From: Pseudoalteromonas shioyasakiensis
Lineage (GTDB): Bacteria; Pseudomonadota; Gammaproteobacteria; Enterobacterales; Alteromonadaceae
NCBI GenBank assembly: GCA_013391845.1
Contig: CP058414.1
Coordinates: 3,210,501 to 3,274,500 of the forward strand
DNA length: 64,000 nt
Direction: 5' to 3'
Part shown: piece by piece, positions 37,349-55,879 of the stretch
Layout: each line of letters starts with the position of its first letter
Position numbering within the stretch: position 1 is the stretch's first letter
The notes under the pieces: model-generated
Databases searched by the model: none
What the model saw: the letters and a program-made list of their open reading frames with translations, nothing else
What the model was told of the DNA's origin: nothing
Made by a program: the position numbers and the translations under genes

Positions 37349-38725
37349 TTATAAAACAATAATACTTGTCACTAGGTAAGCGATGAAGGTTAACGCGCCG
37401 CCGAATAAGGCGTATGGCATTTGGGTTTTAACGTGAGTTAATAGATCACACCCAGATGCAATGGCCGACACCGCGCTGGTATCTGAGATTGGCGAGCAGT
37501 GATCGCCAAACACACCACCACCTAAAATAGCCGCAATGACCAATGAAGGTGGTAATCCTAAAGCTTGAATGAGCGGTACACCAATCGGAATAAGAATTGC
37601 GAAAGTGCCCCACGAGGTACCTGTGGTAAATGAAATCACCGCACCGGTTAAAAACAGTACTGGCACAACCAAGTATATCGGTAAGAAATCACCCACAAGG
37701 CCTGCTACAAACACACCTGTACCTAAATCTTTTAAGCTGGCGCCTAAGGTCAGCGATAACAATACAATAGCAACCAGTGGTAACAGCTCTCCCATACCTT
37801 TAAAGCCGATATCCACCAGCTTATGGTGAGTAAAGTCACGAGAGCTGATCATTAAGAAGTAAGCTACAACACACGCTAAAATAGTTGCATACAGCACTGA
37901 TTTAGAACCACTGCCACTGGCAATATCACCATCGCCAGTCCAGAACATAAAGCCAACCATACTACCAATTAAAGTAATAAGCGGAACAAGCATATAACGC
38001 GCTTTTGAGCCTTTAACTTCTTCAGTCAGTTCGGTTTCTTGTTGTTCAATATTTTCTTCAGCTTGCTTTAATGGGCCATGTACCTTGTCAAAAGTAATAG
38101 TGTAAAACACGATGAGCAAAGTAATAATGGCGTAAAAGTTATAGCCAATACTGCCCCACAATACCGATACCGCCGACTCTTCCATTTCGTAATTGCCAAG
38201 TAGGCCCAGCACGTAAGCGCCCCAGCCATTTAGCAAGATTAAGATACACACAGGAGCGCTGGTACTGTCGATAATATAAGCAAGGCGTGCTCGGCTCATT
38301 TTGAATTTATCGAATAAACCACGCGATAAAATCCCCGAGGTTAATACACTTAAGTTCGATTCAATGAATACCGCAATACCTGAGAACATGGTTAAGTAAC
38401 CCACTTGGCGCTTACTTTTGGCAACCCCTTTGTTCATCAGTAAATTAACTGTAGCAGCCACACCGCCAGATTCACGAATGTAAGCAAGTAAAGCACCAAT
38501 TAGAATACTAAAGATAAGGATACGGCTATTACCAGGGGAGCTGGCAACTTCAATAACTCGCTCAATGGTATTGATAAAGGTGAAAAACAAGGTATTACCT
38601 TCACCATTCAGAGCAAGTAAAAACTCAGACGACGCAACCGCGACCAATAACGCCATGATCACTTCTTTGCGCCAAAACACAATTAAGATAGCAATCAAGG
38701 GTGGTAAAATTGAATACCAAGACAT
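37349..38725 (-). CDS. NhaC-family Na+/H+ antiporter-type transporter
   Basis: A 458-residue polytopic membrane protein of the NhaC family (Pfam PF03553-like). Motifs include VGYLTMFSGIAVFIESNLSV, YIIDSTSAPVCILILLNGWG, FTTGTSWGTFAILIPIG and GGGVFGDHCSPISDTSAVSA. Members exchange Na+ for H+, and some carry malate/lactate or amino acids. It lies 94 bp downstream of the amidase/PBP fusion on the same strand without a clear terminator, so it may export or import a product of muropeptide breakdown such as lactate, or recycle Na+ for the symporter (inference). Confidence 0.85.
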   Translation of the reverse strand: MSWYSILPPLIAILIVFWRKEVIMALLVAVASSEFLLALNGEGNTLFFTFINTIERVIEVASSPGNSRILIFSILIGALLAYIRESGGVAATVNLLMNKGVAKSKRQVGYLTMFSGIAVFIESNLSVLTSGILSRGLFDKFKMSRARLAYIIDSTSAPVCILILLNGWGAYVLGLLGNYEMEESAVSVLWGSIGYNFYAIITLLIVFYTITFDKVHGPLKQAEENIEQQETELTEEVKGSKARYMLVPLITLIGSMVGFMFWTGDGDIASGSGSKSVLYATILACVVAYFLMISSRDFTHHKLVDIGFKGMGELLPLVAIVLLSLTLGASLKDLGTGVFVAGLVGDFLPIYLVVPVLFLTGAVISFTTGTSWGTFAILIPIGVPLIQALGLPPSLVIAAILGGGVFGDHCSPISDTSAVSAIASGCDLLTHVKTQMPYALFGGALTFIAYLVTSIIVL

Positions 38726-38819
38726 AAAAACCCTTTTAAATTAAGAACAACATTTTATTTTTATTATGCGAAAACTCGCTAAGCTTAATGGCTTTGCCAC
38801 TAAACTCAACTTAATTCGA

Positions 38820-41267
38820 CTAGTGATTTAATATACTCTCATAAATCAGTGAGATAATAGAGCCATACTTACCCGTTTCGAAACGTTTGCCAATAAACTC
38901 GTAATTTTCTTGCGAACCTTCAATAGGTGTATGACGAGCATTAGTTAGTAGTACGATGGCAAGGTCATACTCGGGATCTATTACGGTTACAGTGCCAGTC
39001 CAGCCTGTATGACCAAAAGCTCGCGGGCTGGCATAAGGGCCAAAATGCCATTTACGCGCTTGATGCCCCGCTCGTCGCCACCCTAAGCCATAGGTCTCAT
39101 CACTCGCCTCTGGCTTTGTAAATTGTTCGAGTACTTGCGGTGTAAAAATCTGCTTGTTATCGTAGCCGCCACCATTAAGTAGTACTTGCATTAACACTGA
39201 CAAGTCACTGGCGGTACTAAAAAGCCCTGCATGTCCTGCTACGCCACCCAAGGCATAAAACGCTTTTTCGTCATGTACTTCACCTTGTAGTACATCGGTA
39301 CGAATATTTTCAAACTCGATGCGTCCACCTCGGGTGTTACCATTAATCTCAGTGGCGGCAATTTGTGAGGCTAGAAAACCTTTTTGCAGCGGGTTATAAA
39401 CTGTATGCGTTAAACCAAGCGGCTGATAAATTTGGCTTTCAACATAAGTATCGAGCGCCATACCACTAATGCGTTCAACCAGTACACCTAGCAACATATA
39501 ATCGATATCAGAATATAAGTGTTTTACGTTACGGCCAGCGACGAAAGGGACGCCAGTTAATAGCAGGTTTTTAGTACGCAGGCTGTTTTGCGAAAAAAAG
39601 CGCTCACCAAATTTATTATCTTTGCGATGAAAATCAACCACTGCAGGGTAACCCGCACTGTGTGTGAGTAAATCTTTTACTAAGCGCTGCTCACGCCCGC
39701 TGCCTCTAAATTCTGGCAGGTAATAAAATAAAGGTTTCTCTACGTCTAGTTTACCTTCGCTGGCAAGCTTCATGAGTGCAAAGTTAGTGGCAAACATTTT
39801 TGAGTTTGAAGCTATATCAAACAAGGTATCGTTTTGCATGGCTTGTGGGCTGTTAAGCTCACTGCCATCAGCATGATACTTCTTAGCCGCACCATAATGG
39901 CTTAATTTAATCAGTTTGCCATCTTTAACAACGGCAAGTACAGCGCCCGGAAAGCCCTCTTGAATCTCTTGATTTATTAATTCATCAACGGCAGTAAAGC
40001 GTTTTTGTGAGCTGCTTTTGTCCAGCTTTGGATAGGGAAAACGTAAGGTTAAGCTTGCCCCCTCAGGCAATACATTCTCTACTTTATAAGTGTTAATGCC
40101 ATTATGGGTACGCTTAGCTAAACTGTATTGATATATTTTTTCAGCTGTTAATGGCGATGCTATATTAATTTTTTCGCCATTTATAAAAATGTCAGCACTG
40201 GTTGCATCCTGATTTTCAATGATGATCTCCCCGCGACCTTTATAAGCTGTAAATGTACCTCTGTCGTTAACAAGCGCGCGACTACTCGGATCAAGTGCTG
40301 GAATACGCACTACAACTTGTGCATTAGCCAGTGTTTTTGGCTCTGGCTCAACCGCTTGCTGTTGCTGCTGATATTCTTGAAATAACCGCTCACTCTTTTT
40401 AGGAAAGTATTTATCTAATAACGCAAAAAGCACAGCGGCACTTCTTGCATCATTATTACCGCTTACATGCCAAGGCAAAAAGTGCATTTGAAAAGCACTT
40501 AAGGCATCGAGCGTTTGCGAGTCAAGCTGACCCGTTGCAATCACCTCATAGCCGTAACTGCGCAATGCTTTTTGCATTAATTCAACAGAAGGCTTTGATG
40601 CACTAAATAGCTGCCAATATTTATCAACAGTGTCGCTTTCATACCACGCACCGATACCAGCTTTATACAGTTGATACCAAGGAAAACGCGGACCAGGGTC
40701 GTTCTTACGGCTTGGGGCAATATCAGAATGGCCAATCACTTGAGTTGGGCCAATATCAGGGTTACGAGCAAGAATATCTTTGCTTAGCTTTATTAGTAGT
40801 TCTATTTGCTTGGCGTCATAGTCTGGAAAAATACATAACTTGCTAGCGTCGTTTTCCATCGCAAGCTTAGTTTGCTCAGGAATATGACAGGTTGGTACAT
40901 TCACTATTTCAATACCAATTGAATGGTCATTTAAATCTTCTCGGCCTTGCCAAAAACTGCGTCCGGCGTGCCATGCTCTGTCTTTTTCATCAACGAGCTG
41001 AATAATTTCTAAATCGTCTTTTGGATAACTTGGATCGCCTGACTCAGGTAATAAATAATGAGAGCTCAAGCCCCCTTCATCGACTAAAGCGTGCATTGAT
41101 TTTTCGTAATCAATGGCGGTGTAATGCATTACTAAAAACTTAACACGGTGGCTATAATTAGCTGACTGTGTGTAGGTATATGGATTACTGGCACAGCTTA
41201 CTAATAATGCCGCACTACTGAGATAACACAGCTGTTTAAGAAATGTTTTCAAAGGGGTAAAACTCAT
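38820..41267 (-). CDS. AmiD-type amidase fused to YfeW-type penicillin-binding protein (lipoprotein)
   Basis: An 815-residue lipoprotein (lipobox LLVSC, Cys about 25). First comes an N-acetylmuramoyl-L-alanine amidase 2 domain (about 40-220; VMHYTA with the first His ligand, WHAGRSFW, IGIEIVN, GHSDIAPSRKNDPGPRFPW). A peptidoglycan-binding helix bundle follows (about 225-290), then a linker domain. The C-terminal half (about 430-815) is a serine beta-lactamase-fold domain very like E. coli YfeW (PBP4B): S487-N-S-K490, Y-S-D in LYSDIDYMLLG, HTGWTGT, and GNTRGGRIEFENIRT. In E. coli yfeW sits beside murQP and amiD is separate. Here both activities are in one protein that could release peptides from MurNAc and trim them. 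Confidence 0.9.
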   Translation of the reverse strand: MSFTPLKTFLKQLCYLSSAALLVSCASNPYTYTQSANYSHRVKFLVMHYTAIDYEKSMHALVDEGGLSSHYLLPESGDPSYPKDDLEIIQLVDEKDRAWHAGRSFWQGREDLNDHSIGIEIVNVPTCHIPEQTKLAMENDASKLCIFPDYDAKQIELLIKLSKDILARNPDIGPTQVIGHSDIAPSRKNDPGPRFPWYQLYKAGIGAWYESDTVDKYWQLFSASKPSVELMQKALRSYGYEVIATGQLDSQTLDALSAFQMHFLPWHVSGNNDARSAAVLFALLDKYFPKKSERLFQEYQQQQQAVEPEPKTLANAQVVVRIPALDPSSRALVNDRGTFTAYKGRGEIIIENQDATSADIFINGEKINIASPLTAEKIYQYSLAKRTHNGINTYKVENVLPEGASLTLRFPYPKLDKSSSQKRFTAVDELINQEIQEGFPGAVLAVVKDGKLIKLSHYGAAKKYHADGSELNSPQAMQNDTLFDIASNSKMFATNFALMKLASEGKLDVEKPLFYYLPEFRGSGREQRLVKDLLTHSAGYPAVVDFHRKDNKFGERFFSQNSLRTKNLLLTGVPFVAGRNVKHLYSDIDYMLLGVLVERISGMALDTYVESQIYQPLGLTHTVYNPLQKGFLASQIAATEINGNTRGGRIEFENIRTDVLQGEVHDEKAFYALGGVAGHAGLFSTASDLSVLMQVLLNGGGYDNKQIFTPQVLEQFTKPEASDETYGLGWRRAGHQARKWHFGPYASPRAFGHTGWTGTVTVIDPEYDLAIVLLTNARHTPIEGSQENYEFIGKRFETGKYGSIISLIYESILNH

Positions 41268-41434
41268 AACAGATTCATACCTGATGATTTAAGCGTTGAC
41301 GATTCTCAGCAATACAGTAGCAACACCTACTTAACATGTAAAATATTTTATTTCACAAACAAAGAATAAAAAGCATATATTATCGATAAGCTACTAAAAA
41401 TAGAGCTATCTCAATAATTAGTGTTGTATCTATT

Positions 41435-41459
41435 ATGGAATAAAACTATATTATTCCAT
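41435..41459. promoter_or_regulatory. Candidate MurR-type operator in the divergent promoter region
   Basis: ATGGAATA at 41435-41442 and TATTCCAT at 41452-41459 form perfect 8-bp arms around a 9-bp spacer. A third arm, TATTCCAA, lies at 41475-41482. The same arms occur at 51112-51130. The region is between the amidase/PBP fusion gene and the MurR-like gene. Confidence 0.6.
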
Positions 41460-41604
41460 CTAAATTAAGAAAAATATTCCAAACTTAGGTTAGCTAAAAC
41501 AAAAATAAGTCGTCATGTTAAGCAAACAATGCGCCCAAGCCCTGTGTTTATAATTGAACCATTGCTTTGCGTTTTGACTAAGTTAAGCAAACAAAGTGAG
41601 CCCT

Positions 41605-42450
41605 ATGTCTACTTTTGTAAAAATAAAAGCCTTACGTCAATCTCTATCGAGCAGCGAAGCCAAGCTTGCTGACTTTACGTTAAATTCAGCGAATGCTATT
41701 CGTAATTTATCATCGGTTGAACTAGCAAAAGTGGTTGGTGTAAGCCAATCAAGTGTGGTGAAGTTTTCACAAAAATTAGGTTATAAAGGCTTTCCTGCTT
41801 TTAAGCTTGCGGTAATTGATGCCCTTAATGATGAAAGCAGCGAACCTAAGCTACATGGTAAAATCACCCTTAATGACTCGCTAGAGCAAATCGCCGAAAA
41901 GCTATTAAGCAGTAAACTGGCGGTATTAACCGAAACCAAGAACCTAAACGAAGCGCCGGCAGTTGAAAAAGCAGTAGAGCTATTAAAATCTGCAAAACGC
42001 ATTCTAATTTGTGGTTTAGGTGGCTCGGCTCTGGTTGCAAAAGATTTTTCTTATAAATTACAAAAACTCGGTATGCCAGCAATTGCGGAGCCGGATGGGC
42101 ACGCACAACTTGCGTATGTGGCGACGTTTTCAAAAGGTGATTTGGTCATTGCGATAAGTGAATCAGGTATGACTCGCGAAATTGCCGAAGTTGTAAAGCA
42201 AGCCAAGAAAAATTCAAGCTCGGTGATCTCAGTCACAAAATTTGGTAGTAGCCTTGTAGCCGACTCAGCAGATGTAAAGCTTTATTCGGTTGCTGAAGGC
42301 GAATCTGTGCGTTTATCATCAATTTTAGCGCGTACGGCACAAGATTTTGTAATCGACATTTTGTTTATCGCCCTAACGCAATCGAGCCGCCAAGGTCGCA
42401 AGTTACTAGAACATTCTAATGAAGTTGTTGGGGAATTTAAGAATAACTAA
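41605..42450 (+). CDS. MurR/RpiR-family transcription regulator with SIS domain
   Basis: A 281-residue regulator. An N-terminal RpiR-type helix-turn-helix (about 1-75; LSSVELAKVVGVSQSSVVKF, KLGYKGFPAFKLAV) is followed by a SIS sugar-phosphate-binding domain (about 125-265; LICGLGGSALVAKDFSYKL, VIAISESGMTREI, SVTKFGSSLVADSADV). E. coli MurR binds MurNAc-6-phosphate and represses murQP. Location between the amidase/PBP fusion and the receptor gene, in a murQ locus, makes this the likely local regulator. The start at 41605 has AAAGTGAG upstream; a GTG at 41596 is in frame. Confidence 0.88.
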   Translation: MSTFVKIKALRQSLSSSEAKLADFTLNSANAIRNLSSVELAKVVGVSQSSVVKFSQKLGYKGFPAFKLAVIDALNDESSEPKLHGKITLNDSLEQIAEKLLSSKLAVLTETKNLNEAPAVEKAVELLKSAKRILICGLGGSALVAKDFSYKLQKLGMPAIAEPDGHAQLAYVATFSKGDLVIAISESGMTREIAEVVKQAKKNSSSVISVTKFGSSLVADSADVKLYSVAEGESVRLSSILARTAQDFVIDILFIALTQSSRQGRKLLEHSNEVVGEFKNN

Positions 42451-42480
42451 TTTCTTATTTTCTACGATAAGAACACTAAT

Positions 42481-42666: not shown

Positions 42667-42685
42667 GTTATATATTTTATTCCTA
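42667..42685. promoter_or_regulatory. Weak MurR-type half-site before the receptor gene
   Basis: One good arm (TATTCCTA at 42678-42685) with a poor partner (GTTATATA, 4 of 8) at 3-bp spacing. It is noted because of its place before the TonB-dependent receptor gene. Confidence 0.25.
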
Positions 42686-42827: not shown

Positions 42828-45800
42828 ATGAAACAACATGCATCCACACTCGCAATGAGCTATATAGCAAAAGCGACAAGCAATGCACTTCGCGCAAAGA
42901 AAACAGCCTTCACCGGTGTTGTTATGGCCGCAGCTCTAGCCAGCGCGCCAGCCTTTGCAAATCTAACCGGCGGGATCAAAGGTAAAGTATCATCACCTAA
43001 AGCGCAGCAGTCACTGGCGGGGATCACAGTTACAGCAAAAAGTAATGTGATGCCAAAACCACGTACAGTCGTTACGCGAGAAGATGGCAGCTACGACTTA
43101 CCGCAATTAAAACCAGGTACTTATGAACTGACTTTCACTGATAAAAACGGTGTAACTCAAACCATGACTGTCGACGTTTTACTTGAGCAAACATCAAGCT
43201 TAAATGTCACTATGGGCGGTGCTAACGAAAACGTTGAAGTCATTACAGTTACTGGCAGTAAATTATTCCGCCAAGGTAAGTCTGCACTGACTAACTCATT
43301 AGGCGAAGAAGCAATCAACAGCGTGCCAGTTGGTCAAGATTACCGTGACCTACTAAAACTTGTTCCGGGTGTTGAGCTATCAGAAAATGCAACGCTTGGT
43401 CCATCAGCAGGTGGTTCGGGTGTTGATAACTCTTACGGCTTTGACGGCGTAGATGTTTCACTCCCAATGTTTGGTAACTTAGCATCTGAGCCATCAACCC
43501 ATGACGTTGCTTACGTTACTATGGACCGCGGTGGTGCAAAAGCCGTTGGCTTTAACCGCTCAGGTGGTTTCTCAATTAACACCGTATCAAAATCAGGTAC
43601 TGACGAATTCCACGGCAATGTTGAATACAAAGTTCAACCTAAGAGTTTAGTGGCAACACCAACAGGCCAAGAAAGCTATGAGCTTGATAAAAGCTGGTTA
43701 ACAGCAAGTTTAGGCGGCCCACTCATTGAAGATACGTTGTATTTTTATACTTCTTATTACCGCCCAGAAGAAAAGCGTACCAATAAAGATACTGCCTATG
43801 GTGCTGTAAAAGACTTTAAAAGTGTTCGTGATGAGTATTTTGGTAAATTAACTTGGGCACCTACTGACGATATTTTACTTAATATTTCACAGCGTACCTC
43901 AGAAAAAACCATTGAAGGCCGTTCAATTGGCGCTTACGAAACTGACAGTGTATCTGCTGGTGATGAAGCCAACCAAGATATCTTTACTTTAGATGGTTCG
44001 TGGATTTTAGGCGATGCAACAACTCTTTCATTCCAATACAGTAAATTAGAGATAGAAACAGCAGGTAAGCCAGATACTGAATTATCAGTAGTACCTTCAT
44101 TAACGAGCCAGCTTGACTTAAATAATCTAACTGAAATGGGTTACTTCAGTGTCCCTAGCTTATTAGATGCTGATGATAACTACACTGCGGAACAAATTGC
44201 TGCATATAATGCAGGCGCAGCACCACTAATTGCACAATACGGTTATACCGAAGATGGTCAAATGCGAGGCGGCGGCGGTGTTGGTGCGTATTACCGATAC
44301 GATAATATCGACTTCTACCGTGATAGCTTTGAGTTAAATCTAGAACATGAATTTACTTGGGGCGATAGCTACCATACATTACATTTAGGTGGCGAGTGGA
44401 AAGAAGGTAAAGAAGTACTGTCTCGTCTTTCAAATGGTTGGGGTAGCATCTCTTATGTTGGCGGCCTAGATGAAAGCTTAGAAGAAGGCAGCTCTGCGCC
44501 GGTTATTTACCGTGCTCGCGTGCAACAAATGAGCTTAGTAGCAGGTGGTGATGCCGTTTCTGCTATTAACTCAGAAATGGAAACCCTTAACTTCGAAATC
44601 AACGACACCATTGAAGTAGGTGATTGGACTTACAATGTGGGTGTGTTAGTGAGCCGCGATACTTGGTATGGCCAAGGCCTTAAATCGGCATCTGGCACGA
44701 TCTCAGGTTATGAGTTAGCCCCAGGCGAAAAATACAAAATGTACCAAACAGATTGGTCAGATATGATCCAACCGCGTTTAGGTGTGAATTGGAACTATGC
44801 AGATCAAGACGCTATATTTGCTAACTTCTCAATGTATAACCCAGAAGCAAGCTCACTTGCACGTGCCGCCTCTTGGGACCGTAATACCCGTGCCGAAATC
44901 GAAGTTGAATTTGATGCAGACGGCAACGTAATTTATGCAGAGCCGCGTCAAGGTTCATCTGGTAAAGTATTTGCTGATAACTTAAAACCTCGTCAAATCA
45001 AAGAGTTTACGCTTGGTACTACTAAATATGTGGGCTCTGATTTAGTATTACGTGCTCATGTTCGTCACCGTAAGGCATCGCATTTCTGGGAAGATATGCC
45101 AAACAATGCCCGCTTAACTGACTACTCTGGCGTTGATGCTGATGGCGTACCACAACATATTGCAGACAAAGGCCTTTATGTCGATAACCTCGCTGAAATC
45201 CGCGATGAAATTGGTGGTTCATCTTATGTTATTGCCGAAGTAGATGGTGGCGAGACTAAATATTGGGAAGCAAGCATCGAAGCTGAATACCTAGGTGAAA
45301 ACAGCTATATCAATGCTTCTTATGTTTGGAGTCATTACTACGGTAACTTCGACCAAGATAACACCACAGCAACAACAGATGCGAATACCTTCATTGGTTC
45401 ATCAAACTATGGTGATGGCCGTGGTCGTTACCCTTGGGATTACAAATACGGCACATTATCAGGTGATAAACCGCATAAAGTAAAAGTCTATGGTTACTAT
45501 ACAGTGCCATGGGATGCAAACATTGGTGCATACTTTGTATTCCAGTCGGGTAAACCTTGGGAAGCATGGGATGGTTCAATCTACGGTTACTCAAGTGGCA
45601 CAACGCGTTACAGCGAGCCTGCAGGCAGTCGTCGTAGTCCAAGCCATTGGCAACTTGACTTAAACTACACCCAAGACTTTAAGTTCTCAGGTGACATGGA
45701 ACTACAATTCCGTGCTGATATTTTCAATGTATTTGACCGTCAAACAGGTTACAACAATAACCCATATGTCTCGTCAGAAAACTTTGGTGAATATCGTAAC

Positions 45801-45848
45801 TACTACAGCCCACGTCGCGTGCAGCTGTCGTTTAACTTCAAGTTCTAA
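42828..45848 (+). CDS. TonB-dependent receptor with N-terminal carboxypeptidase-regulatory-like domain
   Basis: A 1006-residue outer-membrane receptor. A signal region (about 1-45; ends APAFANL) is followed by a CarboxypepD_reg-like beta-sandwich (about 48-130; GGIKGKVSSPKAQQSLAGI, TREDGSYDLPQLKPGTYEL). A plug follows (about 138-260; LLKLVPGVELSENATL, GFDGVDVSLPMFG, NTVSKSGTDEFHG), then a beta-barrel ending RVQLSFNFKF with a terminal Phe. This Oar-like layout usually imports oligomers such as peptides or glycans. Location beside the MurR-like gene suggests muropeptides as cargo (inference). A strong AAGGACGGGAAA site precedes the ATG. Confidence 0.9.
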   Translation: MKQHASTLAMSYIAKATSNALRAKKTAFTGVVMAAALASAPAFANLTGGIKGKVSSPKAQQSLAGITVTAKSNVMPKPRTVVTREDGSYDLPQLKPGTYELTFTDKNGVTQTMTVDVLLEQTSSLNVTMGGANENVEVITVTGSKLFRQGKSALTNSLGEEAINSVPVGQDYRDLLKLVPGVELSENATLGPSAGGSGVDNSYGFDGVDVSLPMFGNLASEPSTHDVAYVTMDRGGAKAVGFNRSGGFSINTVSKSGTDEFHGNVEYKVQPKSLVATPTGQESYELDKSWLTASLGGPLIEDTLYFYTSYYRPEEKRTNKDTAYGAVKDFKSVRDEYFGKLTWAPTDDILLNISQRTSEKTIEGRSIGAYETDSVSAGDEANQDIFTLDGSWILGDATTLSFQYSKLEIETAGKPDTELSVVPSLTSQLDLNNLTEMGYFSVPSLLDADDNYTAEQIAAYNAGAAPLIAQYGYTEDGQMRGGGGVGAYYRYDNIDFYRDSFELNLEHEFTWGDSYHTLHLGGEWKEGKEVLSRLSNGWGSISYVGGLDESLEEGSSAPVIYRARVQQMSLVAGGDAVSAINSEMETLNFEINDTIEVGDWTYNVGVLVSRDTWYGQGLKSASGTISGYELAPGEKYKMYQTDWSDMIQPRLGVNWNYADQDAIFANFSMYNPEASSLARAASWDRNTRAEIEVEFDADGNVIYAEPRQGSSGKVFADNLKPRQIKEFTLGTTKYVGSDLVLRAHVRHRKASHFWEDMPNNARLTDYSGVDADGVPQHIADKGLYVDNLAEIRDEIGGSSYVIAEVDGGETKYWEASIEAEYLGENSYINASYVWSHYYGNFDQDNTTATTDANTFIGSSNYGDGRGRYPWDYKYGTLSGDKPHKVKVYGYYTVPWDANIGAYFVFQSGKPWEAWDGSIYGYSSGTTRYSEPAGSRRSPSHWQLDLNYTQDFKFSGDMELQFRADIFNVFDRQTGYNNNPYVSSENFGEYRNYYSPRRVQLSFNFKF

Positions 45849-45864
45849 GTTAATTTATCCTGTT

Positions 45865-45889: not shown

Positions 45890-45917
45890 ATGCCTGAAAA
45901 AAGTAAAAGCCAAAAGC

Positions 45918-46351: not shown

Positions 46352-46366
46352 GGTATATCCTTAATG

Positions 46367-47683: not shown

Positions 47684-48618
47684 TATTCTTCAACCGCCTT
47701 ACGTAAAAAGCCGCCGGCTTTTGAAAGTAACTGTTTTGCTTCAGGCGCAGGTTTTCCTGTTAGCACAATTAAAATAGCAAGTTTAGCACTTTGATCTGCT
47801 TGCTTTAATGCATCAACAGCTTGCTGCTGAGTACAGTCTGTTGCTTGCATAACAATACGAATAGCACGAGCATATAGTTTTTCATTACTAGCATTCACAT
47901 CAACCATCAGGTTTTTATACACCTTGCCAGTGCGGATCATGCTAGCTGTACTTAGCATATTAAGTACGAGTTTCTGCGCAGTGCCCGATTTCATTCGTGT
48001 TGAGCCAGTTACGGCTTCAGCTCCAACAACAGGACAAATGCCGATTTGAGGTAAAAGCATCACCGCTGAATTTGGATTACATGTGACACCCACAGTCACA
48101 CAACCGAGTGATTTAGCGTATTCAATTGCCGAGCAAACATAAGGAGTACGGCCACTGGCAGCAATGCCAACCACCACGTCTTTACTGTTTAAATTAACAT
48201 TTTTTAAGTCTTCAACGGCAAGTGTCGTACTATCTTCAGCACCTTCAACAGCCTTCTTAACAGCAGTGTCACCACCGGCAATAATACCCAACACTTGCTG
48301 ATCGCTCACGCTATAGGTAGGAGCACATTCAACCGCATCCAAAATCCCTAAACGACCACTAGTGCCTGCCCCAATGTAAATCAACCTACCGCCATTTTGA
48401 AAGGCTTCGACTACGTGGTCTACCGCTTCACTAATTTGCGGGATAACTAATTTAACCGCCTCAGCCACTTTGTGATCTTCATTATTGATTTTAGTGAGGA
48501 TCTCAGTGGAGCTGAGCAGATCGATATCCAAAGTGTCTGGGTTTTGTCCTTCGGAGACAATGCCGTTTAACTCTTCGAGTAACTCACGCTGTTGCTTAAA
48601 TACGTGCTCAGGGCTCAT
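47683..48618 (-). CDS. murQ: MurQ, N-acetylmuramic acid 6-phosphate etherase
   Basis: Splits MurNAc-6-P into GlcNAc-6-P and D-lactate. The 311-residue SIS protein matches E. coli MurQ along its length: [98 protein letters not shown] and [11 protein letters not shown]. The start at 48618 is chosen for AAAGGA 7 nt upstream; it overlaps the kinase gene by 11 nt. Translational coupling with both neighbours marks a tight operon. Confidence 0.97.
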
Positions 48619-49519
48619 TGGGTTGTCCTTTTTCAATAATGTCATGGTAATGCTCTGCTGCTAAAATCGCAGCACCAGTTAATGAATCTCCCTTGCAAGG
48701 AGATAATTCGTTTTGTAAAGCAAGTGGCAATAATGGTTGGCTAACTTTCGCCAAACCACCAATTAAAATCACTGGTAATAGTGAGTTTCCTCGGCTTTTA
48801 TTAATTAACTGAACTACCGATTGAGTGTGCTCTGTTAATACACTATTTGCCGCTTTACAGTCATTTTTCAAGCTAAACACTAAAGGACTAAATGCTGCAT
48901 AGTCCGCAGGTTTTGCTTGCTTAAGCCAACTACTAATTGCTTGTCGAGTGCATCCTAGCTGCTCACTCAAACGAATCGTTAATCGGCTTTTTGGTAAATC
49001 ATAAATATCTATATCGTTTAATAATTGCTGCACAGCCATAAGACCTATACGGGCACCACCGCCAAAATCATCAACAGTAAAGCCCCAGCCACTAACCAAC
49101 TTTGTTTGCTTTTGAGCATTTAATCTTGCTCCGACAGCACCTGTGCCAAGTGCAATAACTACACATGGCTCGCCAAGGTTTGCACCATATAATGAAGTAA
49201 TTGCATCACTGGTGATTTGCAAACTGGCAAATTCAATTTCGTACACCAGTTTAAGCATCACTTTTAATTGCTCAGCAAGGCTTACCGATGAGCCACCAGC
49301 CACCCCCATAACGGTGACGATTTCACTTGGCTCTGCGCCACTTTGCTGGCATACATCGCGGGTCACTTTAACAATATTTTCTAACGCTAAATCAAGATCA
49401 TTCGAAATTGACGCCGAACCGGCCTGAGCATGAAAAACAGCATCACTTGCCAGCTCCTTAAGCTCAGCTAACACTTTAGTGCCGCCACCATCAATGGCTA
49501 GAATATAGCGAACTGCCAT
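48608..49519 (-). CDS. BadF/BadG-family sugar kinase, likely MurNAc/GlcNAc kinase
   Basis: A 303-residue ASKHA-fold kinase with the phosphate-1 motif [14 protein letters not shown], a central [12 protein letters not shown] and adenosine-site segments [30 protein letters not shown] and VILIGGLAK. Clostridium MurK, of this family, phosphorylates MurNAc and GlcNAc at O6. Since the locus has a Na+ symporter rather than the PTS transporter MurP, a kinase like this is needed to feed MurQ. It directly abuts the symporter stop (TAA-ATG) and overlaps murQ by 11 nt. Confidence 0.88.
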
Positions 49520-51088
49520 TTATGCACTCTTCTCGTTCGATGATTTACCAAAGCAACACACAAGTGTCGCAAGCAAAGTGCCTATACACAGTTGCCAAGT
49601 AAATCCTAGGTAAAAACGCATTGTCTCAGGTAGTAACCAGTCAATCATGTATGGCTGCATTAATAAGGTCACCATAAAACCTGCTATCAGCGCAGCTAGC
49701 ACTGAGCCTTCACTGCCACGTTTGGTGAACAACGTCGTAAAGTACACACCTAACAAGCCACTGTAAGAGAACACCATCACACTTAAAGCAAATTTTAATA
49801 ATGGCATATCACTGTATTGCTGCCAGAAATAACAAAGAATAGCCATTAGCGCTAAGGCAAGGCTCACCACTGCCATACCGACACGACCTGCTTTGACAAA
49901 GTGATGATCACTAACTTGTTTATTATGTTTTTCTAAATACGGACGATAGATATCTTGTACGATGACTGAAGACATCGAACTAAGCCCTGAGTTCAACGTA
50001 GAAATAGCGGCAGCAATAATACCAACGCTCACCAAACCTTTAACTCCTGCTGGTACTTCGTTCAATACGTAGTACATAAAGATTGTGATTTTTTCGCCAT
50101 TAAACTCTTGTACAACGGCTTGGCCTGCCTCGCTGTTCATCAATGCAGGTTGCTGATAAACAATATAAAGCAGAAAACCTATAAAGATAAAAATAGCCAT
50201 AACGGGAATCACCATCACTACAGATAGTAATAACGCCTTACTGCCTTCTTTAGGGCTTTTACAGGTTAATAAACGCTGCGTCATATCTTGGTCTAATCCA
50301 AATGCAGCGATGTTTAAAAGTACAAAACCTGTTAAAACAGAGGCCATGTTAAACACCCCAGACGGGCCAAAATCTAAATCAAATTTAAACAGTGCTAGTT
50401 TAGAATCTGCACCTGGGCTTGGCTCATTGAGTGTTGCGATAATAGTCGAAAAATCAGCAGGAATAACGGCAAGTAAGCTCCATATGACCGCTATAGCAGC
50501 ACTCACGTAAACAATACTTTGCAACACGTCTGAGTAAATAACACTGCGAATCCCCCCCAAAAAGGTATAAAGCAAGCCAGCAAGTGCTAACACCAGAGTA
50601 GCTATAACCACACTGTCTGCATCTATATTTCCGTATAAAATCATCGCCACGGCAATGGCCGCCATGTACAAACGCGCACCACTGGCAAACACACGGCCAA
50701 ATAAATACATCAAGCCACTGCGACGCTTTGCCTTTGGACCGATGCGTTTTTCTAGTAGCTCATAAACCGTAAATACTTTTTGCTGATAGAACTTTGGAAT
50801 TAAAAATGCCGATACGACAAAGGCGGCAATAAACGCACCGATATTAGTGGCTATGTAGGAAAAGTCACCTTGATAGCCTTGATCTGGCCCACCGATAAAG
50901 GTTGCTGCAGATTGTGAGGTAGCTAAAACAGAAATAGCCACCATCCAAGTTGGCATACTATTTCCGCCTAGAAAAAAATCTTGGCTTGAGTTAGCGCGTT
51001 TGCGATTAAACCACCAGCCACTTAGCAATAAAATTGCACCGTAACTTGCGAATACTAGCCAATCAAGTAAAGCGTAATTTGCACTCAT
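49520..51088 (-). CDS. Sodium:solute symporter (SSS family), candidate MurNAc transporter
   Basis: A 522-residue inner-membrane protein with about 13-14 hydrophobic segments. SSS-family features include YGAILLLSGWWFNRKR, SSQDFFLGGNSMPTWMVAIS, TSQSAATFIGGP and GIIAAAISTLNSGLSSMSS (the Na2-site serine region). It is the first gene of the symporter-kinase-murQ-namZ operon with a perfect operator-like palindrome 24 bp upstream. The substrate is inferred from the operon: MurNAc or a MurNAc-containing sugar. Confidence 0.88.
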   Translation of the reverse strand: MSANYALLDWLVFASYGAILLLSGWWFNRKRANSSQDFFLGGNSMPTWMVAISVLATSQSAATFIGGPDQGYQGDFSYIATNIGAFIAAFVVSAFLIPKFYQQKVFTVYELLEKRIGPKAKRRSGLMYLFGRVFASGARLYMAAIAVAMILYGNIDADSVVIATLVLALAGLLYTFLGGIRSVIYSDVLQSIVYVSAAIAVIWSLLAVIPADFSTIIATLNEPSPGADSKLALFKFDLDFGPSGVFNMASVLTGFVLLNIAAFGLDQDMTQRLLTCKSPKEGSKALLLSVVMVIPVMAIFIFIGFLLYIVYQQPALMNSEAGQAVVQEFNGEKITIFMYYVLNEVPAGVKGLVSVGIIAAAISTLNSGLSSMSSVIVQDIYRPYLEKHNKQVSDHHFVKAGRVGMAVVSLALALMAILCYFWQQYSDMPLLKFALSVMVFSYSGLLGVYFTTLFTKRGSEGSVLAALIAGFMVTLLMQPYMIDWLLPETMRFYLGFTWQLCIGTLLATLVCCFGKSSNEKSA

Positions 51089-51111
51089 TTATTATCCTAA
51101 CCCAAACCTCA

Positions 51112-51130
51112 ATGGAATATATTATTCCAT
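51112..51130. promoter_or_regulatory. Candidate MurR-type operator before the symporter operon
   Basis: ATGGAATA-TAT-TATTCCAT, a perfect 8-3-8 palindrome, between the symporter start and the end of the L,D-transpeptidase-like gene. It is the best example of the motif shared with 41435-41459 and 55768-55786. Confidence 0.7.
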
Positions 51131-51168
51131 CATTATGACAGAATTAAAATACTTTTATTTTATTATTT

Positions 51169-51918
51169 TTATTCAGCTAAGTTAGGTAATTGCCACTGAC
51201 TTTGCTTTTGTTGATATTGCGCCTTGGTCAAGCTGACTAATAAAGGCTTTTTACGTTCATCTAACCAAGCAAGCAAAGCGTCCATATTGCGTTCTGTCAT
51301 TGCTGTACAACCAGCTGTAGGCTTGCTAGGCGCACGCCATAAATGCATAAAGATACAACTACCCGCGCCATTGATATTGCTTGGATTATGCTTAACAACA
51401 ATGCCTTTTTTATACAAATTATCTTGGCTGTATATATCACGGCGCATCCATTCTGAAGAGTCTTTTACTGCGTCTTCGCCTACTTGTGCTTTGTCGACCA
51501 GTTGATTGTAAAAAGGCGAGCCTTTCACATCAATGCAGTAATCGTTTGCAGTCATTGCTTGATAACTTAGGTTCGTTTGTAATGAATCTAAATACCCAAA
51601 TGCAGTACCTAGCTCAAAAATACCAGCAGGCGCTTTACCATCCCCTTCTTGTTTTTGCTGACCTGGTTGTGCAGGGTGCAGCCCCACTCCCCAAGCAAGA
51701 CCGGTACGACCAAGTACTACCGCATGTTGTTCGCCTTGTTGTTGCCATTTACCGGCGTCTTTTTCAAAGCGATACAGCGTGGCATCAATAGCATCACTGT
51801 CATTAGCGACCACCACCACGAGTTGCTGATGACTGTTATCAATAACAGGTTTAGGTGACTCTTTGCTTGCACAAGCCGTTAAACTCACAGCTGCAATAAG
51901 ACTAACTAGTTTTTTCAT
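51169..51918 (-). CDS. L,D-transpeptidase (YkuD)-like lipoprotein
   Basis: A 249-residue lipoprotein (signal with lipobox LTAC, Cys about 16). Its catalytic region resembles the YkuD L,D-transpeptidase fold, with IVVKHNPSN, FMHLWRAPSKPTAGCTAM (His and catalytic Cys of the H-x-n-GC pattern) and GDGKAPAGIFELG. Such proteins act on tetrapeptide stems at the L-mDAP/D-Ala bond, as transpeptidases or carboxypeptidases. In this operon a hydrolytic role on released peptides is plausible (inference). The start at 51918 makes an ATGA overlap with the epimerase stop; GGAG lies 10 nt upstream. Confidence 0.8.
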   Translation of the reverse strand: MKKLVSLIAAVSLTACASKESPKPVIDNSHQQLVVVVANDSDAIDATLYRFEKDAGKWQQQGEQHAVVLGRTGLAWGVGLHPAQPGQQKQEGDGKAPAGIFELGTAFGYLDSLQTNLSYQAMTANDYCIDVKGSPFYNQLVDKAQVGEDAVKDSSEWMRRDIYSQDNLYKKGIVVKHNPSNINGAGSCIFMHLWRAPSKPTAGCTAMTERNMDALLAWLDERKKPLLVSLTKAQYQQKQSQWQLPNLAE

Positions 51919-53027
51919 GCTGGCCATACTCCGTTTGTTATTAGTTCAAGCCCTTTTATTGATTCAATACCAAGACCTGGTTTATCCGATAAGCTTATTT
52001 GAGGGCCGATAAACTCAACCCCACCTTGTACAGGGTCATACTGACCAAGAGCTGGGCCATCTAGGTCAATTTTACTGATTTGTTGTGCTTTGGCAGAAGC
52101 TAAATGTGCAGCCCCTGCGACAGCAATACTGCCCTCTAGCATACAACCAATCATACATTCAGCTTGATATTGGGCTGTGATGTTAGCAATCTCAATTGCC
52201 CGGCTTAAACCGCCCGTTTTCATTAACTTGATGTTGATAATATCAACCGCTCCCAACTCTAAAAGCTGGATTACTTGCTTAGGTGAAAAGGCGCTTTCAT
52301 CAGCCATAATCGGTGTATTCACCCGCTCAGTAATATATTTGAGGCCTTGAAAGTCACTGCTTTTTACTGGTTGCTCAACTAACTCTAACACCACGCCAGC
52401 TTGCTCAAGTTGTTGTAATGCAAACACAGTTTGTTTGGCATTCCAACCTTGGTTTACATCTAAACGTAATTGCGCCTTAGCAGCAAAGCCCGCGTGGATT
52501 GCTTTGACACGTTCAATATCTTGATTAAGGTTATTGCCAATTTTTATTTTTAATACGTCAAAGCCTTGCTCAACGGCTAGCTGACAGTCACTGAGCATTT
52601 TATCAATGTTATCGACGCTAATAGTAATATCCGTTTTAAGTTCTGACTTACCGCCGCCAAGTAACTTATATAAAGGTGCTTGATAGAGCTTACCCCACAA
52701 GTCGTACACAGCCAGTTCTAGGGCGGCTTTTGCGCTACTGTTGCCAACCACGGTTGATTGAATAATTTGAGTGAGCTGGTTGATGTTTTCAATTTCTTGC
52801 CCCACCAACTTAGGCGCAATAAACTGCTTAATGACCGCTATCATCCCTTGATGGGTATCACCAGTGATAACCGGTGTTGAGGCCGCTGAGCCATAGCCAA
52901 TTTGACCACATTCGGTGTCGATTAAAACCACTAAGTCTTCGATAAAACTCACTTCTCTCAGTGCTGTTTTAAATGGGGTAACTAACGGCACTTTGAGCTT
53001 TGCAAAGCGAACAGCTTTAATTTTCAT
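51915..53027 (-). CDS. L-Ala-D/L-Glu (dipeptide) epimerase
   Basis: A 370-residue enolase-superfamily enzyme that turns the murein dipeptide L-Ala-D-Glu into L-Ala-L-Glu, a usable nutrient (E. coli YcjG, B. subtilis YkfB). Catalytic and metal residues are visible: KIKIG (K-x-K), LRLDVNQGW (Asp), VEQPV (Glu), MADES (Asp) and NIKLMKTGG (Lys on the opposite face). The amino-terminal capping domain (SAKAALELAVYDLWGKL) is typical. It lies between the NlpC/P60 and L,D-transpeptidase-like genes, like ykfB-ykfC in B. subtilis. Confidence 0.93.
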   Translation of the reverse strand: MKIKAVRFAKLKVPLVTPFKTALREVSFIEDLVVLIDTECGQIGYGSAASTPVITGDTHQGMIAVIKQFIAPKLVGQEIENINQLTQIIQSTVVGNSSAKAALELAVYDLWGKLYQAPLYKLLGGGKSELKTDITISVDNIDKMLSDCQLAVEQGFDVLKIKIGNNLNQDIERVKAIHAGFAAKAQLRLDVNQGWNAKQTVFALQQLEQAGVVLELVEQPVKSSDFQGLKYITERVNTPIMADESAFSPKQVIQLLELGAVDIINIKLMKTGGLSRAIEIANITAQYQAECMIGCMLEGSIAVAGAAHLASAKAQQISKIDLDGPALGQYDPVQGGVEFIGPQISLSDKPGLGIESIKGLELITNGVWPA

Positions 53028-53035
53028 ATCGGCCT

Positions 53036-54412
53036 CTAGCGAATACGCTTAATGTTATAAACACGGTCTAAATAACTGGTTTCTTGAGATAATCTTAATG
53101 GCAACAAAGGTGTCACAGACACCCCATTCAAGGCACTACTATAAAAGCTGCCATCGCCTTTGTTGTAACCTAATCCTTTGACATCATGAATAACATACGG
53201 CTCGCCGTGATGCTCCCCTAAGTACATCATCACGTGACCAGGAATATAGATCAGATCGCCAATCGCCATATTTTTAACCGTTGGTATCTTGGCATCCGCA
53301 GCGGTATTCTTATCAAAACGATTATTTTGCCCGTATTCACTACTGCCTTGCTGCCCTGAATTACGCGGCATTAATAGGCCAAAGCTTTTATAAATTTCAC
53401 CAACAAACCCGGTGCAGTCGCGGCCATTGTAATCATGCCCCCAACCATAACGCTCACCTAAAAACTTAAAGCCTTGTTTAATTAGATTTTGCTCGTTGTA
53501 GTCTAAGTAACCTAAATTTACATCGGCAGTTTTGCTGATCATCGCTGGTTTAATTACAAGTTGACCTTGCTCATCACGAGTAGGTAACTGTACAACATGG
53601 CTGGCATAGCTATTTTGGCCGTTTAGCAAATAAGGTACTTTCTCACTATCAACTAAGGGTAAGCGTACCCCCATATCTAGTTGCACTTCTGAGCGGCTTT
53701 CATCGTTTGGCACATAAGCAGTATTTACTTTTGCACCTGTCACAACCAAGAAGTTATCTTGTTCACGATAAGCTTTTATTTTATCCGCATCAGCAAAGGC
53801 AAGATCTTCGGCAGGTGCCCATGCTAAGTAGTTGTAAGCACGTACTAACAACCACTTTTTATCTGCGCTTTGATGTAATACAGCCACAGCCTCACCCGGG
53901 AACATGCCACTTTCTTGGAAGCGATCTAAGTCTTGATCAAGGCCACTATTTAAAACCCGATCCCAAGTTGGAAATGTACGTAATGCAGTACGTTTAACTA
54001 CCACTGCAAAACGCACCTTATTAGTATCTGCGACTTTGTTAAGATTTAAGTTAGCCTGATATTTAGCAAAATCTTTCGCAGTGAGTTGTCGGCCGTCGGT
54101 AAAAAAACGCGGGCTTTTTGGAATTGCACTTGCCGAGTGAATGGCACTTGTTAGCTCGTCTTTACTAAGCGATTTTTGGAAAGACAGTGGATCAACAATG
54201 TATTTATTATCTTTAATAAGTTTTTCGTTGAAGGCAGCAATTTGAGCCTCCGTCATAATCATTTTTGCCGATGCCCCTTGCGCTAACCAGTAGCTAGGAG
54301 AAAGCTGTGACTGCGTGACCCCGATAACATCTGATTGCCAACCTTCGGCATGCATGGGTGCACTAAAGGCAACACCTAAAGTAATTGATAAAGCGATAAT
54401 TGAACGACGCAT
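53036..54412 (-). CDS. SH3-domain NlpC/P60 endopeptidase (YkfC-like)
   Basis: A 458-residue exported protein with a signal peptide (ends APMHA, about residue 22). An N-terminal NlpC-associated domain is followed by bacterial SH3-type domains (about 150-290; FPTWDRVLN, FPGEAVAVLHQSADKKWLLV). The C-terminal NlpC/P60 peptidase has the catalytic Cys in YNGRDCTGFVGEIYKSFG, His in YIPGHVMMYLG and a third polar residue in VIHDVKG. YkfC-type enzymes cut between D-Glu and mDAP, releasing L-Ala-D-Glu for the epimerase, whose gene follows 8 nt later. Confidence 0.9.
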   Translation of the reverse strand: MRRSIIALSITLGVAFSAPMHAEGWQSDVIGVTQSQLSPSYWLAQGASAKMIMTEAQIAAFNEKLIKDNKYIVDPLSFQKSLSKDELTSAIHSASAIPKSPRFFTDGRQLTAKDFAKYQANLNLNKVADTNKVRFAVVVKRTALRTFPTWDRVLNSGLDQDLDRFQESGMFPGEAVAVLHQSADKKWLLVRAYNYLAWAPAEDLAFADADKIKAYREQDNFLVVTGAKVNTAYVPNDESRSEVQLDMGVRLPLVDSEKVPYLLNGQNSYASHVVQLPTRDEQGQLVIKPAMISKTADVNLGYLDYNEQNLIKQGFKFLGERYGWGHDYNGRDCTGFVGEIYKSFGLLMPRNSGQQGSSEYGQNNRFDKNTAADAKIPTVKNMAIGDLIYIPGHVMMYLGEHHGEPYVIHDVKGLGYNKGDGSFYSSALNGVSVTPLLPLRLSQETSYLDRVYNIKRIR

Positions 54413-54428
54413 AGCTGTACCTTAATTC

Positions 54429-55739
54429 TTATTGAAAGCGTGAATCTAATAATTTTGTAAAAGCATGCTGCAATTTTTGCTGCATTTGCTTACCGACTGT
54501 CGGCAAATTGGCTTCGTCAGCCCCCTGAGTTGACTGCTGTACACTAAATGTAAACTCACGCCCACCTTGATAATTTCCTAGACACACATGTGCCAGCATC
54601 ACGGCTTCTGTGGTGGAGCGCGTTTCACTTGGTCCCCAACCAATTTTTTGCCATACACGCCACTGCCCATTGGTTGTGCTATCGAGCACCTCTTTTGCAG
54701 AGCGACTATCATTTGGCGCAATAACATCTGCCAACGCATTTGTAACAATTTGACTGATACCTACCATCATGCCGCCTACTTGAGCCTGTTCGTAGGTATG
54801 ACCTGTGCCGTTAAGTAGCACATCAACATCACTTGCTTGTAAATAAGGCATTTGTGTACTTGGCTCACGCTGGTGACTAACCAAGCGCTTTAACCATTCA
54901 GCTTGAGCAAGTGTAGTCATTGCTTTGTTGCCCGTTAAGCCACAACTGTCGCAACGATATCCTAAATAGCCGGGATCATCACTGCTTGTTATATAATGAA
55001 CGACTTTTGCATCAAGCTCATTATTTGCAGGGTTATGCCAATACTCGTCTGATGGCATAAACTGCTCTGAGCCATATGCGCCGTTAAATAACAAACGCTC
55101 ATCCTGTAGTTTGAGCCAGCCATCATTAAAAAGTCCACGTAAGTACTCTCGCCCTGCCACATTCACAAAATAACTGGCAATAGCATTTGAGTTGCCATCG
55201 GCTTTACCAAATGCTTCATAGCTATTAATACTGCTGATCAAATCTGCCAGCGCTGTATCACCTGCATAGAGCGTTGCACCAAGCTCTGGGTGGGTTTGTC
55301 TTACTTTAGATAGCGCACCGCTAAATGCTTGAATTTTTGATGAGCTCCAAGGCTCATACAATTCATTATGGCTGCCATCACTTAAATAGCGATAGGCTAG
55401 CTGCCCAGCCTGTACTTGATAATCTATTAATAGAAATTTACCTGGCTGCTCAGAGGCTAAGAAATACTGCCAATCGGCCGCCACTCTGTTTTGCCAACCT
55501 GCCTGTTGATAATTAACCTCAGTTGCTGATTTATAGCCTGGCTGCTGACTTTCACCTTCCAGTGATAAGCAACCAGTATTTTTTAAATCTTTTGGCAAAA
55601 TAGCGGGAGCTAACATTACCTGCTCAAAGTATTGTTGGTCTGTTAATGGGGTTTTTTCTGTGTTCGCTTCACAACCAGTCAAAAGCATCAAGCCGCAACT
55701 TATAGCCAGCCGTTTTTGATATGCACCTTTCGCATACAT
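54429..55739 (-). CDS. Lipoprotein with penicillin-binding/serine-hydrolase-like motifs, unknown activity
   Basis: A 436-residue lipoprotein (lipobox LLTGC, Cys about 24). The body has motifs in the order of serine penicillin-recognising enzymes: EPWSSSKIQAFSGAL (S-x-x-K), GNSNAIASYF (S-x-N) and a later WQKIGWGPSETRSTTEAVML where K-T-G would lie. Four cysteines sit in GCLSLEG, YRCDSCGL and AHVCLG. A beta-lactamase-fold carboxypeptidase acting on muropeptides is the leading guess, but no family is recognised. The start at 55739 is preferred; an upstream TTG at 55811 would place the operator inside the gene. First gene of a four-gene operon. Confidence 0.65.
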   Translation of the reverse strand: MYAKGAYQKRLAISCGLMLLTGCEANTEKTPLTDQQYFEQVMLAPAILPKDLKNTGCLSLEGESQQPGYKSATEVNYQQAGWQNRVAADWQYFLASEQPGKFLLIDYQVQAGQLAYRYLSDGSHNELYEPWSSSKIQAFSGALSKVRQTHPELGATLYAGDTALADLISSINSYEAFGKADGNSNAIASYFVNVAGREYLRGLFNDGWLKLQDERLLFNGAYGSEQFMPSDEYWHNPANNELDAKVVHYITSSDDPGYLGYRCDSCGLTGNKAMTTLAQAEWLKRLVSHQREPSTQMPYLQASDVDVLLNGTGHTYEQAQVGGMMVGISQIVTNALADVIAPNDSRSAKEVLDSTTNGQWRVWQKIGWGPSETRSTTEAVMLAHVCLGNYQGGREFTFSVQQSTQGADEANLPTVGKQMQQKLQHAFTKLLDSRFQ

Positions 55740-55767
55740 AAAATAAAATTCCCACTTGTTATTTTTT

Positions 55768-55786
55768 TTGGAATATTTTATTAAAT
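55768..55786. promoter_or_regulatory. Candidate MurR-type operator before the peptidase operon
   Basis: TTGGAATA-TTT-TATTAAAT, 7 of 8 and 6 of 8 matches to the arms of the 51112 site at the same 3-bp spacing. It lies 29 bp upstream of the first gene of the operon. Confidence 0.5.
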
Positions 55787-55879
55787 CTAACACAATTTCT
55801 TCATGAAGCAAATTAACTCGGTTTTATTGCCTATAAGACGCTGGCTTAAAAAATAATTTAACGATTAAAGTCTATCGTC

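Follow-up and report, generated by a model that had tools for sequence, protein, structure and literature searches.

Among the components of marine organic nitrogen, peptidoglycan and its D-amino acids are important but poorly understood, which raises the question of which genes a marine bacterium might use to bring this polymer across its outer membrane and consume it. Pseudoalteromonas sp. CF6-2, of the same genus as the organism considered here, can live on peptidoglycan as its only source of carbon and nitrogen, and it makes use of D-Ala and D-Glu (PMC6962226). That study concerns the secreted protease pseudoalterin; its main text does not contain the terms ‘TonB’, ‘MurNAc’ (N-acetylmuramic acid) or ‘transcriptom’, and leaves the uptake genes unnamed (PMC6962226). 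The question becomes testable with a locus of Pseudoalteromonas shioyasakiensis, whose 12 open reading frames (ORFs) fill positions 37349-55811 of the window, the whole stretch of 64,000 nucleotides that was analyzed (contig CP058414.1, positions 3,210,501 to 3,274,500). The gene content, conservation and clustering of this locus, and a palindrome shared among its genes, are established by computation. With high confidence we take it for a peptidoglycan-catabolic regulon, probably under a MurR-type regulator, for which we infer the substrates, regulator binding and direction of control.

The 12 ORFs lie where an earlier reading of the window from its letters alone (the sequence-only reading) had put them, and its testable annotations hold by Pfam and NCBIfam models, applied with equivalog cut-offs, and by solved relatives. 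Judged from position and strand, the block comprises about five transcription units. An amidase-PBP4B gene followed by an NhaC-type gene would form the first (minus strand), the regulator and the receptor would each stand alone (plus strand), symporter, kinase, MurQ and NamZ genes would make up a sugar operon (minus strand), and penicillin-binding-protein (PBP)-like, NlpC/P60, epimerase and YkuD genes a peptide operon (minus strand).

The sugar operon starts with a Na+/solute symporter of the SSF family (49520..51088; best solved relative 5NV9, E 2e-38), a putative MurT-like MurNAc importer. It continues with a BadF/BcrAD-type sugar kinase (48608..49519), whose domain family and whose fusion to MurQ in a relative suggest a MurK-like MurNAc kinase, and whose ORF overlaps that of MurQ by 38 bases. 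MurQ itself is the MurNAc-6-phosphate etherase (47683..48645; TIGR00274 413.5 bits, cut-off 302; 4S12, E 3e-101), and the last gene encodes a lipoprotein of the NamZ exo-beta-N-acetylmuramidase family (46505..47683; NamZ_N 275 bits, NamZ_C 101 bits; 4JJA, E 7e-107). Nothing in the window locus qualifies as a MurP importer of the phosphotransferase system (PTS); it has the symporter plus the kinase.

NamZ was found in 20 of 247 genomes sampled from the order, the window's own among them, with 19 of the matches above cut-off. Of the 19 NamZ loci besides the window's, 16 have MurQ no more than about 6 kb from NamZ; one of the 19 is a match under the NamZ cut-off (G152; G and L numbers are our handles for genomes and loci). 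The non-overlapping ORF selection omits murQ in G106 and G224, and the MurQ count was taken from a separate neighborhood listing. Four loci outside the family have a PTS gene in place of the symporter, and none of them is labeled with a symporter too; the one that was scanned is above the MurP cut-off, and the other three were grouped by similarity. A domain scan showed a BadF-type kinase fused to MurQ in a single 615-aa protein of G072 (L032:726-2573); the MurQ ORFs of G147 (617 aa) and G052 (626 aa) resemble this fusion by length only.

Extra genes of the NamZ loci, identified from one representative per similarity cluster, include a GH3 protein with a weak C domain and a FAD/Fe-S protein that resembles glycolate oxidase and D-2-hydroxyacid dehydrogenases, reaches no equivalog cut-off and would suit the D-lactate released by MurQ. 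Others are an alanine racemase, a gamma-glutamyltranspeptidase, a protein of D-amino-acid transaminase type (this one under cut-offs), members of D-glutamate cyclase families, and 5-oxoprolinase subunits of PxpB type (above cut-off) and PxpC type (below). That relatives exchange equivalent parts for the chemistry of one molecule is a strong argument for peptidoglycan as the substrate. The D-glutamate cyclase families, 5-oxoprolinase types and D-amino-acid transaminase type were seen in Thalassotalea and Rheinheimera peptidoglycan loci (L046:7221-8960, L047:10007-14341), where they possibly provide a second route for D-Glu. Proteins of 337-397 aa without a Pfam family lie near GH3 or NamZ at L032:6122-7315, L054:828-1883 and L023:2716-3729.

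Could the symporter and kinase instead handle sialic acid, N-acetylglucosamine (GlcNAc) or some other sugar that is acidic or N-acetylated? The nearest solved relative of the symporter is 5NV9, the sialic acid transporter SiaT, and that of the kinase is a probable GlcNAc kinase. Yet the two genes share an operon with MurQ and NamZ, the kinase is fused to MurQ in a relative, a MurP-type PTS occupies the same place in other families, and the MurT and MurK proteins of Tannerella forsythia belong to the same superfamilies (PMC5790795), so that a sugar other than MurNAc appears highly improbable.

The peptide operon, all on the minus strand, holds a PBP/class A beta-lactamase-like lipoprotein (54429..55811), a protein with SH3_6 and NlpC/P60 domains of the gamma-D-Glu-diamino acid endopeptidase type (53036..54412; 3M1U, E 7e-25) and an L-Ala-D/L-Glu epimerase (51915..53027; MR_MLE; E 1.2e-89 to the L-Ala-D/L-Glu epimerase 1JPM). 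Its last gene encodes a YkuD-type lipoprotein (51169..51927), a predicted L,D-carboxypeptidase or transpeptidase with a weak YkuD match (26.4 bits, cut-off 23.4), for which a PDB search returned nothing up to E 1. Epimerase and NlpC/P60 genes are adjacent in the window and no more than 20 kb apart in 22 of 22 family genomes that have both. In the first unit, a lipoprotein joins three parts, an N-acetylmuramoyl-L-Ala amidase of AmiD/AmpDh3 type, a PG-binding domain and a serine hydrolase of PBP4B (YfeW) type (38820..41267, minus strand; Amidase_2 and PG_binding; NF002968 500 bits, cut-off 385; AmpDh3 4BXD, E 3e-62). The NhaC-type (PF03553) membrane transporter that follows (37349..38725, minus strand) is a putative Na+-coupled carrier for a peptidoglycan breakdown product, and an NhaC-type gene is present in 9 of the 12 other same-family NamZ loci. 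Read by eye, lipobox-like signals mark NamZ and the amidase-PBP4B, YkuD and PBP-like proteins, and the NlpC/P60 protein has an apparently ordinary signal peptide.

The PBP-like gene, for which a start at 55739 is likelier than one at 55811, matched no family in Pfam or NCBIfam. A search gave 251 homologues of its product, and some of the 120 listed are named ‘Serine hydrolase’ at source. In an alignment of 53 sequences (the window protein, 51 listed homologues and one locus protein), S132, K135, S184, N185, K365 and G367 are invariant and appear to follow the SxxK, S-N, KxG order of serine penicillin-binding proteins. Its AlphaFold model (pLDDT 93) resembles PBP-A and class A beta-lactamases, at best with E 1.6e-6 and a TM score of 0.37 on query length and 0.54 on target length, and the product is best read as a murein D,D-peptidase-like lipoprotein with predicted activity.

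Two observations on relatives touch the peptide genes. A DUF819 protein adjoins NlpC/P60 in Neptunicella, Bowmanella and Psychrosphaera (L027:11754-12920), and the palindrome described below precedes the Bowmanella copy; by position and palindrome, NhaC and, in these relatives, DUF819 are candidate carriers of the dipeptide L-Ala-D-Glu. In Thalassotalea (L045:11708-13834) a YkuD protein is fused to a transglutaminase-core domain.

Are the sugar and peptide genes controlled together? The regulator (41596..42450, plus strand; HTH_6 and SIS) is certainly a member of the RpiR family and probably has MurR function. A first search by exact inverted repeats gave no clear winner, and a 17-base consensus was then picked by eye, with the window and the relatives of that first search as its discovery data. 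The resulting operator-like palindrome, TGGAATAnnnTATTCCA, has a perfect copy once in the genome, before the sugar operon (TGGAATATATTATTCCA, 51113..51129, 25 bp upstream of the symporter gene). Less perfect operator-like sites lie about 30 bp upstream of the likely peptide operon start (55769..55785, 12/14), upstream of the amidase-PBP4B gene (41339..41355, 11/14), upstream of the regulator (41465..41481, 10/14) and, weakly, upstream of the receptor (42668..42684, 10/14). The divergent promoter of amidase and regulator also holds a wide-spaced inverted repeat, TGGAATA-N9-TATTCCA (41436..41458). Together, the five locus segments contain 6 sites of at least 10/14 as compared to 0.98 in shuffles, with 0 of 400 shuffles as high.

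The palindrome was tested on 37 loci outside Pseudoalteromonas, with three loci on contigs of discovery genomes (L083, L090, L094) left out. The 114 segments that precede peptidoglycan genes held 14 sites scoring 12/14 or better (shuffles 0.38, maximum 2), and the 144 other upstream segments held none; with the threshold lowered to 11/14, the former held 35 sites (shuffles 2.65). The 14 sites precede genes of the sugar side (symporter, regulator, D-lactate-dehydrogenase-like gene) as well as of the peptide side (receptor, NlpC, and DUF819 and NhaC carriers), with NhaC preceded in Bowmanella and Paraglaciecola and receptor genes in Bowmanella and Arsukibacterium. The four other-family loci with a MurP-type PTS carry 12-13/14 copies between murQ and murR, and in Escherichia coli the space between murR and murQ holds an 11/14 copy, no other in the 9 kb examined being that strong; from these placements, the regulator is probably MurR in function. 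Sugar-arm and peptide-arm genes appear to share one putative operator across genera, which supports the single regulon proposed from sequence.

The receptor (42828..45848, plus strand) is a TonB-dependent outer-membrane receptor with an N-terminal carboxypeptidase-regulatory-like domain (CarboxypepD_reg). Pfam plug and barrel domains were not detected, and the assignment comes from its AlphaFold model (pLDDT 77), which matches solved TonB-dependent receptors (best 6ofr, E 1.1e-26, 935 columns). It is 97% identical to the receptors of Pseudoalteromonas sp. XI10, P. shioyasakiensis M14-00201 and Pseudoalteromonas sp. 0303, and a four-sequence receptor alignment, used to scan named genomes, yielded 58 loci. 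Peptidoglycan genes occur within flanks of up to 10 kb in 48 of these (18/18 in Pseudoalteromonas, 30/40 in others). With the amidase-PBP4B scored as peptide-type, the 40 loci outside Pseudoalteromonas divide into 17 with peptide- and sugar-type partners, 11 with peptide-type only, 2 with sugar-type only (L096 and L113, with 35%-identical NamZ) and 10 with neither. On a receptor tree whose 58 rows are the window and 57 loci, L116 having been left out as too short, the neighborhood label is clustered (3 changes, 0/500 shuffles as low), to which near-copies contribute.

Counts over genomes agree on the company that the receptor keeps. Among 118 sampled family genomes, searched with a separate E-value limit for each protein, the receptor was found in 23, NamZ in 50, the epimerase in 27 and NlpC/P60 in 30. 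The 23 receptor genomes include 23 with NamZ, 21 with NlpC/P60 and 18 with the epimerase (Fisher p 6e-11, 3e-14 and 1e-10, respectively, kinship ignored). The distance from receptor to NlpC/P60 is at most 20 kb in 16 of 21 genomes, the other 5 having them on different contigs; NamZ is at most 20 kb away in 12 of 23, on the same contig at 0.43-0.75 Mb in 2 and on different contigs in 9. The receptor follows the peptide half more tightly than the sugar half, which ties it to the former and means that the sugar half may be elsewhere. The co-occurrence of these genes in related genomes, whose lack had been named beforehand as counting against the proposal, was clearly found, as was their clustering.

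Two receptor relatives have unusual neighbors. At L113:13020-15407 a beta-lactamase-family domain is fused to NamZ beside the receptor relative, whose opposite side is taken by an L,D-carboxypeptidase-family gene; the record says Klebsiella pneumoniae, but this receptor groups with that of a Steroidobacteraceae bin, so the bin is probably mislabeled. In Neptunicella the first receptor is directly adjoined by another one (L028:7828-10833), with 23% identity to that of the window.

It might still be that the receptor imports something else, such as an iron complex, a protein or another peptide, its position being incidental and MurNAc catabolism alone being real. Its fold matches are mostly siderophore receptors, as for any TonB-dependent receptor, and 10 of the 58 receptor loci lack any screened partner. 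Five of these ten are contigs of at most 10.3 kb, and in another of the ten, L099, a Beta-lactamase2-family gene adjoins the receptor. The Aestuariibacter receptor (L091) sits by PhoX, FeoB and heme-synthesis-type genes, a neighborhood that the Alteromonas lipolytica locus (L101) resembles in its ORF layout. An unrelated cargo is nevertheless unlikely, given that the receptor co-occurs and clusters with peptidoglycan genes, that the palindrome precedes receptor genes in Bowmanella and Arsukibacterium, and that L,D-carboxypeptidase-family genes adjoin the receptor in L092 and L113.

Besides the partnerless receptor loci, several results weigh against a peptidoglycan regulon. The regulator scores 175.5 bits with the MurR equivalog (cut-off 408) and 248 bits with PRK11557, also below cut-off; the epimerase is under its equivalog cut-offs in NCBIfam; the kinase is closer to a probable GlcNAc kinase than to a solved MurNAc/GlcNAc kinase; and the sole GH3 match in the assembly is an 841-aa frame, not NagZ-sized. 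As to the palindrome, the gap before NhaC in the window has none and the receptor's site is just 10/14, the 14 test sites include near-copies (three Arsukibacterium, five Bowmanella), and 5 sites of at least 11/14 occur in the 144 other upstream segments (shuffles 2.20). Genome-wide, sites with up to 3 mismatches are not in excess (182 forward versus 251 in the control), and the best other genomic site (1 mismatch, G000:C1:1910060) lies before a 101-aa ORF that has no evident connection. The counts over related genomes and loci are not independent. The one-mismatch site was set aside as chance; the preceding long ORF reads like a sensor kinase by eye. Seven stretches with off-locus palindrome sites were taken, and ORFs were listed for two of them.

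As a peptidoglycan-catabolic regulon, the locus would pass peptidoglycan pieces through the outer membrane via the TonB-dependent receptor and dismantle them with periplasmic lipoprotein hydrolases. The amidase would separate peptide from MurNAc, NamZ would free MurNAc from the glycan, and the PBP4B part and the PBP-like and YkuD enzymes would remove D-Ala or cross-links. The Na+ symporter would import MurNAc, the BadF kinase would phosphorylate it, and MurQ would split the phosphate into GlcNAc-6P and D-lactate, with NagA, encoded elsewhere in the genome, taking over. On the peptide side, NlpC/P60 would cleave after D-Glu to give L-Ala-D-Glu, which would be imported, perhaps by the NhaC-type protein, and converted to L-Ala-L-Glu by the epimerase. 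MurR would probably repress the genes until MurNAc-6P is present. On balance, we are inclined to go one step further and regard the receptor as the founding member of a family of TonB-dependent receptors for murein peptides or muropeptides, which follows the peptide half (NlpC/P60, epimerase or D-Glu cyclase), has spread through Alteromonadales and their neighbors and, with the MurR-type regulon, makes up a modular ‘peptidoglycan utilization locus’ by which marine gammaproteobacteria eat the walls of others, D-amino acids included.

The sequence-only reading went too far in placing every step in one block. NagA (2 copies, both above cut-off) and the sole GH20 of the genome are encoded elsewhere, and there is no NagZ-sized GH3. 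The relatives' D-lactate-dehydrogenase-like gene had no match in this genome, in a search without a positive control. The genome is a single contig of 3.63 Mb, so a second replicon could be absent from the assembly.

These functions outside the block bear on whether the locus chiefly recovers the cell's own wall turnover products, leaked to the periplasm or medium, in place of foreign peptidoglycan. MurQ/MurR systems do serve recycling too in E. coli and B. subtilis (PMC5061867), and without a NagZ-sized GH3 cytoplasmic recycling may be incomplete. Cytoplasmic recycling has, however, a separate AmpG (one copy, above its cut-off, elsewhere in the genome), products already in the periplasm need no energized outer-membrane receptor, and the patchy spread (receptor in 23 and NamZ in 50 of 118 genomes) is unlike that of a housekeeping function. 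We give recovery of the cell's own wall a modest chance and continue to favor use of foreign peptidoglycan.

How much of this is new? The ampG-murTKQ operon of T. forsythia scavenges foreign MurNAc and muropeptides and groups a sodium-symporter-superfamily MurNAc importer and a BcrAD/BadFG-family MurNAc kinase with MurQ (PMC5388701, PMC5790795). The window locus groups members of these families too, a likeness drawn from published families and not from direct sequence comparison. NamZ enzymes are known in T. forsythia as well (PMC10465942). Because murTKQ already covers the three activities predicted for the window's sugar half, that half is of a known kind. That operon differs from the window's in being under GppX control rather than MurR, in containing AmpG and in belonging to a MurNAc auxotroph; the main text of the two papers does not contain ‘TonB’, and their passages on the operon mention no epimerase (PMC5388701, PMC5790795). 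The E. coli divergon of murR and murQ-murP-yfeW shares MurQ, a PBP4B and probably MurR with the window locus and carries the 11/14 palindrome copy, and E. coli MurR represses when MurNAc-6P is absent (PMC5061867). It has a PTS importer for the symporter and kinase and a PBP4B without the amidase fusion, and the operon lacks NamZ, receptor, epimerase and NlpC/P60.

Bacillus divides comparable parts differently. YbbC of B. subtilis is NamZ, and ykfABCD encodes a YkfB-type epimerase and a YkfC-type NlpC/P60 protein, a pair like that of the window's peptide half. The murQRP-amiE-nagZ-ybbC genes of B. subtilis group MurQ, MurR, an amidase and YbbC (PMC5061867), and their nagZ has a parallel in the GH3 of loci in the window's relatives. 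Unlike the window's single block with an outer-membrane receptor, these are two separate loci in a Gram-positive with PTS uptake. The GlcNAc cluster of Caulobacter groups a TonB-dependent receptor with amino-sugar catabolism, but it serves GlcNAc, has a GntR-type regulator and a PTS, and its genome is described as lacking MurQ (PMC13046382). The analogy to a polysaccharide utilization locus drawn by the sequence-only reading stands functionally; the window locus is not of the Bacteroidetes type, as none of its twelve genes matches the SusD family (Pfam).

No description of a receptor-bearing MurQ/NamZ locus was found in the parts of the open-license literature consulted. Within that literature, what is new about the known parts is that they stand together with an outer-membrane receptor, apparently under one operator. 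The locus is a well-supported, unusually complete assembly of known parts, and what is new and of real interest in it is the probable murein-peptide receptor family. For most bonds of the polymer it contains a candidate gene, and to these it adds the outer-membrane receptor, possible Na+-coupled carriers and a regulator whose putative DNA site is defined. It also hints at functions for a serine-hydrolase-like family that has no name and for transporter families whose substrates are unknown.

The block has a GC content of 0.42, as compared to 0.41 and 0.43 in its flanks, and its PHROGs matches were limited to generic lysin, tail and weak ones. Upstream of the locus, three genes in a row (33585-35538) encode a TonB-family protein, an ECF sigma factor and what is probably an anti-sigma protein. 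This trio adjoins NhaC in G244, is present in 5 of the 18 Pseudoalteromonas receptor loci and could be a dedicated energizer of the receptor. At the other edge, directly beside the locus (56165-56777), lie four tRNA-Arg(acg) genes and one tRNA-Ser(gct) gene, a cluster that is possibly an insertion hot spot.

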